A DNA stretch of 64,000 nucleotides from Algoriphagus sp. (GTDB lineage Bacteria > Bacteroidota > Bacteroidia > Cytophagales > Cyclobacteriaceae): assembly GCF_013373065.1 (NCBI RefSeq), contig NZ_JABXIN010000005.1:62001-126000 (forward strand), in the 5' to 3' direction. A program made the translations under genes and the position numbers. Under the pieces are notes generated by a model. It did not search any database. It was not told the DNA's origin and saw nothing but the letters and a program-made list of their open reading frames with translations. Shown here in pieces: positions 8,352-14,338 of the stretch (positions are counted from its first letter, which is position 1; every line of letters starts with the position of its first letter).

Positions 8352-8396
8352 CAAAAATACAGCCTTCAATAGGCCTTTGGCAGTAATTAAAATCAC
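8352..8396 (-). promoter_or_regulatory. Rhodanese promoter with Crp-like site
   Basis: On the minus strand the -7 box TATTTTTG is at 8359-8352. A palindrome GTAA-N6-TCAC (8383-8396, one mismatch from GTGA-N6-TCAC) is centred 30.5 bases upstream of the box. No TTTG -33 element is present, as expected for an activator-dependent promoter. Confidence 0.5.
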
Positions 8397-8400
8397 ATAA

Positions 8401-8655
8401 TTAGGCTTTTGCGAATTTTTTCCGAATAGAAATAATACTTAACCGAACCAAAAGAACCCAAGGGAATCCATGAAAAACCAAATCCCCCCAATCAATTAAC
8501 TTCATACCAACAGCACCTCCCATCACCCATCGGACTTTCCCAAAGAAGTGAGGTTCCGGGAAAAACGGAGCTAAACCCAAGGTCATGGTTAGGATTAAAA
8601 CGGTTCCCCAATTATTAAGTGGGTTTGTTGGTCTTACTTCTTTTTGCGTAGCCAT
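8401..8655 (-). CDS. Small inner-membrane protein
   Basis: The 84-residue protein has two hydrophobic segments (about 17-35 and 60-78) with the phrase FFGKVRWVMGGAVGMKLIDW between them. I do not recognise a named family. Its start lies 22 bases inside the end of the sterol-desaturase-like gene, so it is translationally coupled and presumably works in the same membrane process. It is the last gene of the TauE-desaturase operon. Confidence 0.75.
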   Translation of the reverse strand: MATQKEVRPTNPLNNWGTVLILTMTLGLAPFFPEPHFFGKVRWVMGGAVGMKLIDWGDLVFHGFPWVLLVRLSIISIRKKFAKA

Positions 8656-10354: not shown

Positions 10355-10399
10355 CAAAAGTAAGACACCCCCTACGGCAGCAGCAGTAACAAATGTTAC
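10355..10399 (-). promoter_or_regulatory. tauE promoter with Crp-like palindrome
   Basis: On the minus strand the -7 box TACTTTTG lies at 10362-10355. The perfect palindrome GTAAC-AAAT-GTTAC (10386-10399) is centred 30.5 bases upstream of it, the same spacing as at the rhodanese promoter. A second half-like GTAACAAAAGTAAG overlaps the -7 region (10351-10364). The rest of the 287-base spacer up to 10615 shows nothing else I can name. Confidence 0.5.
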
Positions 10400-11417: not shown

Positions 11418-12074
11418 TTATTTGCTGATCAACTCTTCAAAATCGTCTCTAATGTAGATCACATTGCGGCCAAGCTCAATCCATTTCTTTTTCTCGAGCT
11501 GCTTCAAAAGTCGTGAAATTACCTCTCTTGAGGTTCCCAACTCATTGGCGATTTCTTGATGGGTGGTATTGAGTTCGTTTGTTTTATGTTGTTTCATTTT
11601 GGTGACGATGTAGCGCATCAAGCGTTCATCCATCCGTTTGAAGGCAACTGCATCAAGTGCCACGAGCATTTCATGAAAGCGGCTTTGGTAGGTTTCGGAC
11701 ACAAAATCTTTCCATTGCTTAAACTCATCAGTCAGTTGTTCATGAAGAGAAACAGGGATTGCGATGATAGTCGTAGGTTCCTCTACTACAGCTTTTATCT
11801 CACTTGGTCTTGCAGCTGAACAACATGTCAAAGAAAGCGCACAGGTTTCACCCGCGTCCAAATAATACAAGAAAAGTTCCTTTCCATCTTCATCCATCCG
11901 CATCACTTTAATTGAGCCTTCCAGAACAATAGGAACCATCTTGACAAATTTCCCTGGCTCCATCAGTACTTTACCAGGCTCCAAATTCATCACCTGTCCT
12001 TTTTCCAAAAGTGTCTCAAGAAGTCTTGGATCTGTAAATTCGGGAAGGTATGTTTTTAATTCTTCTGTAGTCAT
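11418..12074 (-). CDS. Crp/Fnr family transcriptional regulator with Cys-rich effector domain
   Basis: The 218-residue protein has a cyclic-nucleotide-binding-like beta barrel (about 20-135) and a C-terminal winged helix (about 150-212) whose recognition helix reads GTSREVISRLLKQLEKK. The segment that normally forms the phosphate-binding cassette (GELAL...R) is replaced by GETCALSLTCCSAARPSEIK. This puts Cys78, Cys84 and Cys85 at the ligand pocket and removes the cAMP pattern. There is no N-terminal Fnr [4Fe-4S] cysteine set. Divergent from sulfide:quinone oxidoreductase, it is a plausible thiol or persulfide sensor; that is inference. Confidence 0.93.
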   Translation of the reverse strand: MTTEELKTYLPEFTDPRLLETLLEKGQVMNLEPGKVLMEPGKFVKMVPIVLEGSIKVMRMDEDGKELFLYYLDAGETCALSLTCCSAARPSEIKAVVEEPTTIIAIPVSLHEQLTDEFKQWKDFVSETYQSRFHEMLVALDAVAFKRMDERLMRYIVTKMKQHKTNELNTTHQEIANELGTSREVISRLLKQLEKKKWIELGRNVIYIRDDFEELISK

Positions 12075-12133: not shown

Positions 12134-12192
12134 CAAAAATATAATTCTAGATCAAATTTAGGCCATTTTTCCTAATGTGATAAAAATCACAT
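12134..12192 (-). promoter_or_regulatory. crp-like gene promoter with Crp-like site 1
   Basis: On the minus strand the -7 box TATTTTTG is at 12141-12134. The palindrome ATGTGA-N6-TCACAT (12175-12192) matches the Crp/Fnr consensus GTGA-N6-TCAC. It is centred 42.5 bases upstream of the -7 box, 12 bases (about one DNA turn) farther than at the other cluster promoters. This fits autoregulation. Confidence 0.55.
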
Positions 12193-12264
12193 AAGACCTA
12201 AGGTTCCAGAAATCAGTAACATCCCTTTAGTTTTTTCACAAATTAGATGAAATCATTCAATAAG

Positions 12265-12308
12265 GTGACGAATGTCACTAAATTAAGTGGAGGATATTTA
12301 TACCTTTT
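12265..12308 (+). promoter_or_regulatory. sqr promoter with Crp-like site 2
   Basis: The palindrome GTGAC-GAAT-GTCAC (12265-12278), which also reads GTGA-N6-TCAC, is centred 29.5 bases before a -7-like box TACCTTTT (12301-12308). The sqr start codon follows at 12332. The spacing matches class II activation. Confidence 0.55.
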
Positions 12309-12331: not shown

Positions 12332-13591
12332 ATGAAACATTATCAGATTGTAATCATCGGTGGAGGTACCGCCGGTATCACAGTGGCAGCCCAACTTAAA
12401 CTAAAAGATAAAAATCTTCAGATTGCCCTAATTGAACCTTCCGACAAGCATTATTATCAACCTGCATGGACTTTGGTAGGAGCTGGAACATTTGATTTTA
12501 AAGACACCGAACGAAATGAAGGGGATTATATTCCCAAAGGTGTTGAATGGATTAAAGACAAAGCAACTGGAATTGATCCTCATAAAAACCAGGTTGATAC
12601 AGCTTCATCTGGAAAAGTGAAATATGATTATTTGATTGTGGCACCCGGCTTGGTGATGGCTCCTGAATTAATTCCTGGATTAAAAGAAGCCATGGACAAA
12701 GGGGTAGTTTGCTCCAATTACACAGATCCTGAGCATACATGGGAAGTTCTTAAAAATTTCAAAGGCGGAAATGCGATTTTCACCCAACCAACCACGCCAA
12801 TTAAATGTGGAGGTGCACCTCAGAAAATTATGTATTTGGCCGAAGACTATTTCCGCAAGCACGGGATTAGAGACAAAGTTAATGTTGCATTCTATACTCC
12901 TGGAACCATTATTTTCGGTGTTCCGGATTTTGCAAAAACATTAAATAAAATCATCCACGATCGTAATATCCACTTCAAGCCATTTATGGCTCCCGTACGA
13001 ATCGATGCGAAAAATCAGGACATCTATTTTAAATATATCAAGCCCGAGGAGGAATATTCCATTCCTGAAAACAATCCAATGGGTGAAGAATTAGATGATT
13101 CAAAAGAAATCAAAGTTCATTTCGATATGTTGCATTTGGCACCCCCTCAGGCGGCGCCTAAATTCATCCAAGAGTCTGAAATTTCCATTCAGGAAGGCCC
13201 TGGAAAAGGCTGGGTAGATGTAGACATCCACTCATTACAACACTCTCGTTTTCCAAATATTTTCGCATTAGGTGACGTTGCACATTTACCAACTGCGAAA
13301 ACCGGAGCAGCCATCCGTAAACAGGCCCCTGTTGTTGTAGAAAACCTTTTGGGATTAATCAAGTCCAAAGAAGTTGGGCATGCATCCTATTCAGGATACT
13401 CTTCCTGTCCATTGGTAACCAGATATGGAAAAATGGTTTTGGCAGAATTTAAATATGACAATGTGAGAGACTCCGATCCAATGATTTCAAAATTTGTGGA
13501 TACTTCTAAGGAGCAATACAGTATGTGGCTGTTGAAAAAATACGGTCTACCGTTCATGTATTGGAATCTCATGCTTCGAGGAAAGGCCTAA
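12332..13591 (+). CDS. sqr: Sulfide:quinone oxidoreductase (FAD-dependent)
   Basis: The 419-residue protein opens with the FAD-binding loop IIGGGTAGITVA and has a second dinucleotide motif FALGDVA near residue 312. Cys159 in PIKCGGAPQK and Cys359 in GYSSCPLVT match the conserved redox cysteines of SQRs related to the mitochondrial type. Cys127 is a further candidate. The enzyme oxidises sulfide to a persulfide and passes electrons to the quinone pool at the inner membrane. A rhodanese and a sulfur-anion exporter in the same cluster would process the product. An intrinsic terminator follows. Confidence 0.9.
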   Translation: MKHYQIVIIGGGTAGITVAAQLKLKDKNLQIALIEPSDKHYYQPAWTLVGAGTFDFKDTERNEGDYIPKGVEWIKDKATGIDPHKNQVDTASSGKVKYDYLIVAPGLVMAPELIPGLKEAMDKGVVCSNYTDPEHTWEVLKNFKGGNAIFTQPTTPIKCGGAPQKIMYLAEDYFRKHGIRDKVNVAFYTPGTIIFGVPDFAKTLNKIIHDRNIHFKPFMAPVRIDAKNQDIYFKYIKPEEEYSIPENNPMGEELDDSKEIKVHFDMLHLAPPQAAPKFIQESEISIQEGPGKGWVDVDIHSLQHSRFPNIFALGDVAHLPTAKTGAAIRKQAPVVVENLLGLIKSKEVGHASYSGYSSCPLVTRYGKMVLAEFKYDNVRDSDPMISKFVDTSKEQYSMWLLKKYGLPFMYWNLMLRGKA

Positions 13592-13698: not shown

Positions 13699-14285
13699 GT
13701 GAAGAAGATTCTTCTAACCACTTCGCTTTTTTTGATCTTGGCACTTTTACCTATGGCATGCAGTGATTTCTGTGGAAATCCCTGTTGCTGTGGTCCTGTA
13801 TTCGAAGTAAATGATTTTCGAATCCAATCATTTGAAACCATTTCCCTAACAACTTAAGGGCAGCAGGTAAGCCCAAACACCACACTTCCTTATATTTTCA
13901 TTACCAAGTCATTTCGCATAAAAGATATTGTAACCCTCACGGAGCGAACTCCTAGTTCAATTGCTCCTTTTGGTACAGCATACGCATGTAGCCCTCCTTC
14001 TCCCCAATCAAAGAAGTAGAACTAGGAAATGGAGAAATATTAAAAGTCGGTCAGGATCTGAGTGATTACTTTGAGATTAATCGATTTTTTACTGAACAAA
14101 CCAGACCTATTCCTGAATTTTTTGAAACTCCACTCCCCTTATTTTTGGAAGACTTATTCAAATTGGTTTGGATTAAGGATCCCGGCAAGGAAGTTTAGCT
14201 TCAATTTAGCATTCGAATTCTCATGGAAAATGGTCTAGATTTCAACCTTTCCAATGAAATCTAGAGTATTCGCTCCGCAAACTGA
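13699..14285 (+). pseudogene. Decayed Cys-rich lipoprotein gene
   Basis: The GTG-initiated frame encodes a lipoprotein signal (KKILLTTSLFLILALLPMAC) and a Cys-rich start (CSDFCGNPCCCGP), but it stops with TAA at 13855. The same frame continues as protein-like sequence for about 50 codons (GQQVSPNTTLPYIFITKSF...). Near 14000 the coding potential moves to another frame (IKEVELGNGEILKVGQDLSD...), which is again cut by TAG at 14196, followed by FSIRILMENGLDF and TAG at 14262. One frameshift and at least two or three in-frame stops therefore interrupt one ancestral reading frame of roughly 190 codons. I do not recognise the family with certainty. Confidence 0.75.
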
Positions 14286-14338
14286 TTTAAATCACCAAAA
14301 ATCTTTCGAATTTTTACTTAGATTCATTCCAAATAGTA

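Follow-up and report, generated by a model that had tools for sequence, protein, structure and literature searches.

A cysteine-bearing Crp/Fnr-type regulator beside sqr in Algoriphagus probably activates a sulfide-detoxification regulon

E. coli CRP reads GTGA through residues R180, E181 and R185, and at its class II promoters the site lies at −41.5, the classical position for class II CRP activators. FNR is another cysteine-bearing member of the Crp/Fnr superfamily, and in this it resembles the regulator described here, but its cysteines lie elsewhere in the protein and its reading residues are different. Fnr-type regulators sense oxygen, NO or redox state. Control of sqr, of persulfide dioxygenase genes or of both is described for regulators of other families, namely SqrR/BigR (ArsR family), CstR (CsoR-like) and FisR (sigma-54 activator), and cysteines act as sensors in CstR, SqrR, BigR and Cupriavidus FisR according to passages of PMC9774590, PMC9918477 and PMC7315123. 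OxyR, LasR, OhrR and MarR-type proteins are named as further sulfane-sulfur responders in passages of PMC9774590 and PMC9918477. Crp appears in PMC9774590 in the reference list alone, and passages of PMC7315123 give A. baumannii Crp as a persulfidated protein with an effect unknown there. Among the titles and abstract openings listed from the open-access literature, no Crp/Fnr persulfide sensor controlling sqr was found, the nearest case being the persulfidation of A. baumannii Crp. Sensing of sulfide or persulfide is described for ArsR, CsoR-like and sigma-54 regulators, and for none in Bacteroidota within the literature covered.

The window analysed here is a stretch of 64,000 nucleotides from the genome of an Algoriphagus species. 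It carries a gene for a Crp/Fnr-type regulator of 218 aa (11418..12074, minus strand) and, divergent from it, sqr (12332..13591, plus strand), which encodes a putative sulfide:quinone oxidoreductase of 419 aa. Residues 1-417 of the latter match mitochondrial SQOR structures (E 5e-103), and the product scores below the cut-off of the NCBIfam SQR model (249.8 of 525 bits). The 257-bp spacer between the two genes holds two exact GTGA-N6-TCAC palindromes, GTGATAAAAATCAC on the regulator side (12177..12190) and GTGACGAATGTCAC on the sqr side (12265..12278), both at the coordinates given by an earlier sequence-only reading of this DNA. They are the only two exact matches in the 64-kb window, where 0.54 are expected. 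Of 100 dinucleotide shuffles of the window, 15 contained at least two exact palindromes somewhere. When the 257-bp spacer itself was shuffled by mononucleotides 20,000 times, at least one exact palindrome arose in 0.19% of the shuffles and two in none. The whole genome contains 38 exact palindromes, compared with 22 matches to a reversed control pattern, a mild enrichment only. Likely sites are marked by promoter position and not by the bare palindrome.

The −7 box of Bacteroidota promoters has the form TAnnTTTG and lies at −12 to −5, as given in passages of PMC9723704. With the box placed there, a palindrome whose centre is 33 or 34 bp from that of the box would be centred at −41.5 or −42.5. 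The −7 box of sqr, TACCTTTT (12301..12308, plus strand), is centred 33 bp from palindrome 2. The distance of 29.5 bp from the centre of this palindrome (12271.5) to the first base of the box agrees with the sequence-only reading, as does the 42.5 bp from the centre of palindrome 1 (12183.5) to the first base of TATTTTTG, the box named there for the regulator gene. Two overlapping candidates are present at that place on the minus strand (12134..12143), TATTTTTG (12141-12134, offset 46) and TATATTTT (12143-12136, offset 44). The two spacings had been said to differ by about one DNA turn; the difference is 13 bp with the box that was named, which is not quite a turn, and 11 bp with TATATTTT. A further candidate that the earlier reading lacked, the exact box TAAATTTG (12153..12160, minus strand), has an offset of 27.

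The same measurements were taken in relatives, for which the best 80 of 113 confirmed regulator loci in named genomes (L046-L125) were used in one scan. These genomes are related to each other and are not independent samples. Among sqr promoters, a box with at most one mismatch was found at 33 bp in 16 of 27 and at 32 or 34 bp in none, and no sqr-side box in this set was exact. The set excludes eight of 35 spacers (the window among the 35) that lacked an exact site 45-75 bp upstream of sqr. Regulator promoters gave a box with at most one mismatch at 33 bp in 37 cases and at 34 bp in 17, together 54 of 63, after 18 of 81 promoters with no usable site or too little sequence had been left out. 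The window's own regulator promoter is one of the nine without this spacing; like those of L046 and L047, and no others in the set, it has an exact box at 46. Since both promoters are spaced at 33-34 bp in most relatives, the longer spacing at the regulator promoter of the window is a local exception.

Conservation of the palindromes themselves was followed in the same loci. In 34 of the 80, sqr lies beside the regulator gene in divergent orientation, and every one of these 34 spacers carries at least one exact palindrome; two exact palindromes are present in 22 and two with at most one mismatch in 27. The sequence-only reading would have counted it against its proposal if close relatives with the gene pair had lost the palindromes; none of the 34 had lost both. 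Exact sites number 58 in the 35 spacers (window plus 34), whereas 300 mononucleotide shuffles gave 0.07 on average and never more than 2. Chance occurrence of the spacer palindromes was rejected on the strength of the shuffles and of this conservation. Taken together, the 80 loci yield 80 exact sites, which comprise 67 distinct 20-mers, 62 of which read GTGAY-N4-RTCAC. The background was gauged on the ORFs of 150 residues or more in the 80 loci, 620 in all. An exact palindrome lies within 200 bp upstream of 92 of them, and 87 of the 92 are the regulator gene or sqr. Of the remaining five, L117 has two, at tauE and at the gene divergent from it, and L068, L096 and L097 have one each.

The other 46 regulator loci have no sqr in the fetched stretch. 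Exact palindromes within 300 bp upstream of the regulator gene are kept in 24 of these, 49-64 bp before its start in 23 and 41 bp before it in one; the position in the 23 fits autoregulation. The remaining 22 have no exact palindrome in the 300 bp upstream, and 11 of them have none even at one mismatch. These 11 are L088, L091, L103, L111, L117, L118 and L120-L123, with L084 as the eleventh, where just 60 bases of upstream DNA were at hand; L118, L120, L121 and L123 are from Cyclobacterium. The reverse arrangement was seen in L213, one of 30 fetched sqr loci, where sqr lies apart from the regulator gene and yet keeps its palindrome and a box at 33 bp.

Two additional promoters within the window, whose sites the sequence-only reading had overlooked, show the same architecture. 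The tauE-like transporter gene (PF01925; 9519..10328, minus strand) is preceded by a third site with two mismatches, GTAACATTTGTTAC on the tauE strand (10386..10399, minus strand), and by a −7 box, TACTTTTG (10355..10362, minus strand), whose centre is 34 bp from that of the site. Next after tauE are a fatty-acid-hydroxylase-like gene (PF04116; 8634..9512, minus strand) and a small gene of 84 aa for which no family was found (8401..8655, minus strand), both presumed to share its transcript. A site with two mismatches or fewer lies 50-85 bp upstream in 57 of 57 tauE promoters, those of the window and of 56 loci (1 exact, 48 with one mismatch, 8 with two), a generous count because the best site within that range was chosen. 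The box position, unlike the site, was not chosen, and it lies at 33 bp in 20 and at 34 bp in 37 of these promoters, the box being perfect in 56 of 57. The fourth site, GTGATTTTAATTAC on the rhodanese strand (8383..8396, minus strand), has one mismatch and precedes a gene for a single-domain rhodanese (PF00581; 7985..8320, minus strand), with a perfect box, TATTTTTG (8352..8359, minus strand), centred 34 bp away. Site and box at 33 or 34 bp were found together in 32 of 36 rhodanese promoters (window plus 35 loci whose rhodanese has 60% identity or more), the exceptions being L054, L055, L056 and L057.

With the tauE and rhodanese sites included, the working site pattern is probably GTRA-N6-TYAC. 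Comparison thus supports a putative regulon with shared promoter architecture and four sites within the window. The proposal that the neighbouring regulator controls itself and sqr is borne out as far as conserved sites, spacing and the recognition helix described below can speak to it; it appears too narrow, for the likely regulon takes in tauE and the rhodanese gene too. A further sequence one mismatch from the consensus, CTGATTTAAATCAC, lies at 14282-14295, upstream of a feoB gene (PF02421). It was dropped as a regulon site, there being no −7 box at 33 or 34 bp on either strand.

The regulator matches PF00027 (36.5 bits) and PF13545 (52.6 bits), both above cut-off, which places it in the Crp/Fnr superfamily; PF00325 is matched too, and no ArsR, CsoR or sigma-54 activator domain is among its Pfam matches. 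It therefore differs in protein family from SqrR, CstR and FisR, for which persulfide chemistry is reported in the passages covered; what it has is an invariant cysteine pair known from sequence. Its nearest named orthologue, in A. limi, is 98% identical. A structure model was built from 48 sequences, and the best of five had a mean pLDDT of 86.8 (others 70.0-84.9) and a pTM of 0.65. The predicted fold is CRP-like: in Foldseek, 4ev0 was matched with E 6e-14, the two of its chains that were listed having a TM of 0.67-0.75; for most of the other Crp/Fnr chains listed the TM was about 0.4-0.57, and the 50 matches listed were of Crp/Fnr type. P. gingivalis HcpR is matched by fold (9day_B, 16% identity) and is absent from the sequence matches at E ≤ 0.001. 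The best sequence match among solved structures is 3dv8, a Crp/Fnr protein of Eubacterium rectale (E 3e-23), which is about 22% identical and has C-x5-C in the same place but not the CC pair.

The recognition helix, R183-E-V-I-S-R188 (codons 11511..11528, minus strand), aligns with R180, E181 and R185 of E. coli CRP, the residue letters of which were checked against 1g6n. R183, E184 and R188, the CRP-type R-E-x3-R reading residues, are present in 81 of 81 orthologues. CRP thus shares with this regulator and its sites both the fold and the GTGA-N6-TCAC core, whereas the E. coli CRP model gives the regulator 57.5 bits against a cut-off of 266. The likeness ends at the effector pocket. The only cysteines of the regulator, C78, C84 and C85, are invariant in 81 of 81 orthologues, and when the protein is aligned with CRP they lie within the phosphate-binding cassette for cAMP. 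The stretch C78-A-L-S-L-T-C84-C85 (codons 11820..11843, minus strand) occupies the loop that holds cAMP in CRP and is the proposed thiol switch. In the model, loop 74-92 is free of helix, with a pLDDT of 60 in one block. The cassette of CRP, with E72, R82 and S83, is not kept: E72 has no counterpart, R82 corresponds to K or R89, and S83 is replaced by P90 in 80 of 81 orthologues. With the cassette not conserved, cAMP was judged an unlikely effector.

Sites elsewhere in the genome were studied by reading 12 of the 38 palindromes in context, in addition to the spacer pair; they were chosen mostly by their inner bases (Y..R), so the sample is not unbiased. Three of the 12 fall inside a long ORF. 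Several of the others precede genes for a protein with metallo-beta-lactamase and rhodanese domains that resembles persulfide dioxygenases, for a 1-Cys peroxiredoxin and for a SoxB-like protein, and one adjoins the genes for cytochrome bd and a paralogous Crp/Fnr protein. The SoxB-like and dioxygenase-like proteins both score below curated cut-offs, and these names denote likenesses. A gapped pattern of palindrome plus box was found at 147 places in 59 genomes of the genus, against 45 for the reversed control, and at five against one in the source genome. The five precede the sqr, dioxygenase-like, peroxiredoxin, SoxB-like and cydA/paralogue genes.

The promoters of these genes were then compared across loci, counting palindromes within 200 bp and boxes at 33 or 34 bp with the source genome included. 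The best 30 of 34 dioxygenase-like loci had a palindrome in 22 and a box in 22. All 19 peroxiredoxin matches were used, and palindrome and box were each found in 15. For sqr (best 30 of 39), the palindrome is present in 30 of 30 and the box in 17, leaving 13 without such a box. The corresponding figures for the SoxB-like gene (best 30 of 37) are 23 and 14 of 30, nine of the 23 palindrome-bearing promoters being boxless. The promoters of 10 close paralogues all carry a palindrome, with a box on the paralogue side in one. A DUF302 gene (C9) has a palindrome in the source genome, but with a palindrome in five of the best 30 of 33 loci (the source genome included) and a box in none it was rejected as a regulon member and provides an internal negative. 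The eight dioxygenase-like genes without a palindrome (L268, L271-L277) belong to draft genomes of 2.2-2.6 Mb. Their promoters have a box in common, GTATCTTTA.

Since relatives keep the palindromes, mostly at a fixed distance from the box, and since palindromes also precede other sulfur genes, these are likely sites of the regulator. We consider it likely, though well short of certain, that the neighbouring regulator uses them to activate, as a single regulon for sulfide detoxification, sqr and its own gene, tauE, the rhodanese gene and unlinked sulfur genes. The predicted class II position, with box and palindrome centres 33 or 34 bp apart, is found in the window at sqr, tauE and the rhodanese gene, and outside it at the regulator promoters counted above and at dioxygenase-like and peroxiredoxin genes. 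A dimer bound at −41.5 or −42.5 would lie beside RNA polymerase, as a class II activator does, and could stand in for a weak −33 element. The invariant cysteines, the lost cAMP cassette and the sulfur-gene neighbours make a thiol sensor of persulfide likely, and the regulator is probably a thiol-sensing Crp/Fnr activator of sulfide and persulfide detoxification. SQR would make persulfides or polysulfides that react with C78 and C84 (with C85), at the place of cAMP in CRP, and this reaction would alter the affinity of the dimer for DNA. In the pathway so controlled, SQR would convert sulfide to persulfide, the dioxygenase together with rhodanese would carry the sulfur on to sulfite, and TauE would take it out of the cell.

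The identity of the binding protein bears on this proposal, for the source genome encodes three Crp/Fnr proteins above the HTH_Crp_2 cut-off. One of the other two, with a T-E-S-V-I-R helix, is the FNR-like protein of the genome. The second adjoins cydAB, is 41% identical to the regulator of the window, and keeps the R-E-x3-R helix as well as C78 and C84. This shared helix and cysteine pair, and the palindrome in 10 of 10 paralogue promoters, are what would speak for some other Crp/Fnr protein, above all this paralogue, being the chief binder of the sites or of some of them, a reading that we regard as quite improbable. Close paralogues that share the reading residues occur in 10 of 59 genus genomes (the source genome included), whereas the sqr sites are kept in the best 30 of 39 loci. 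The peroxiredoxin site, moreover, is kept in five genomes with no intact close paralogue (G316, G319, G321, G082 and G331), and in three of these, G316, G319 and G321, the window-type protein is the sole R-E-x3-R protein among those over the cut-off. G082 has one extra Crp/Fnr protein, with the helix S-R-Q-T-V-S-M. In G331, an A. limi-like genome (L344), the paralogue is seen as a 63-residue piece with the HTH. Since the site is kept without the close paralogue, the window-type regulator is the best common candidate for the binding protein. That the palindromes are functionless matches has in its favour the modest genome-wide excess of the bare pattern over its control; with conservation and near-constant spacing across relatives against it, we hold this to be vanishingly improbable.

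The remaining alternatives accept the neighbour as the binder and differ in what it senses or does. The regulator might respond not to persulfide but to NO, to oxygen or to redox state in general, possibly by way of a metal or an Fe-S cluster on C78, C84 and C85, in which case the sulfur genes would belong to a broader respiratory response. Fnr-type regulators do sense such signals, a site and the paralogue adjoin cytochrome bd, and another site precedes the peroxiredoxin gene, all of which speak for a reading that we hold to be rather unlikely: the targets and neighbours followed here are mostly sulfur-oxidation genes, and the N-terminal 4Fe-4S cysteine cluster of FNR is absent, the regulator holding C78, C84 and C85 alone. 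Alternatively, the regulator may be a repressor sitting over the −33 region and released by persulfide in the manner of SqrR and CstR. We think this improbable. In its favour, the site overlaps the place of the −33 element. The sites of repressors can move, whereas class II activators need the −41.5/−42.5 position. The near-constant −41.5/−42.5 position at many promoters, with nine of 63 regulator promoters off this spacing, thus argues against repression. What speaks for it, besides the overlap, is that CstR and SqrR, as regulators of sulfide oxidation, are themselves repressors according to passages of PMC9918477.

If the proposed activator is what it appears to be, a Crp/Fnr persulfide regulator would explain how H2S removal is controlled in these bacteria. 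It would be the Bacteroidota counterpart of SqrR, CstR and FisR, with the CRP scaffold re-used and protein thiols replacing cAMP. As this environmental genus is in culture, the proposal can be tested directly on the sites, the spacing and two cysteines.

Relatives of the regulator at E ≤ 1e-35 were found in 95 of 296 Bacteroidota genomes. The distant set comprised the 25 homologues with fetched DNA (L309-L333), L308 (79% identical) being left out. A sulfur gene of the marker set lies within about 1.5 kb of 17 of the 25. The same marker search gave 0 of 11 for other HTH loci, 2 of 6 for FNR-type loci and 1 of 30 for DUF302 loci as controls, 6 of the 19 peroxiredoxin loci (mostly through cydB) and 5 of 15 palindrome loci of the source genome. 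C-x5-C is present in 23 of 25 distant homologues. An exact palindrome was found in six or fewer of the 25 loci and several recognition helices are changed, which argues that the DNA site is not phylum-wide. A broader claim, which we advance tentatively and would place a little short of an even chance, is that these proteins form a phylum-wide Bacteroidota branch of the Crp/Fnr superfamily in which a C-x5-CC thiol loop replaces the cyclic-nucleotide pocket. Such a persulfide-sensing class II activator would be the first sulfur-sensing switch on the CRP scaffold and would drive the whole sulfide-to-sulfite route together with its own gene.

Two additional palindromes were followed in the source genome alone, and no regulon membership is claimed for them. 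One (L163:5295; G000:C30:312294) lies 87 bp upstream of a YceI-like gene. The other (L161:5209; G000:C17:23208) has a second dioxygenase-like gene on one side and a porin-like gene, followed by a sulfur-transport gene (PF04143), on the other.
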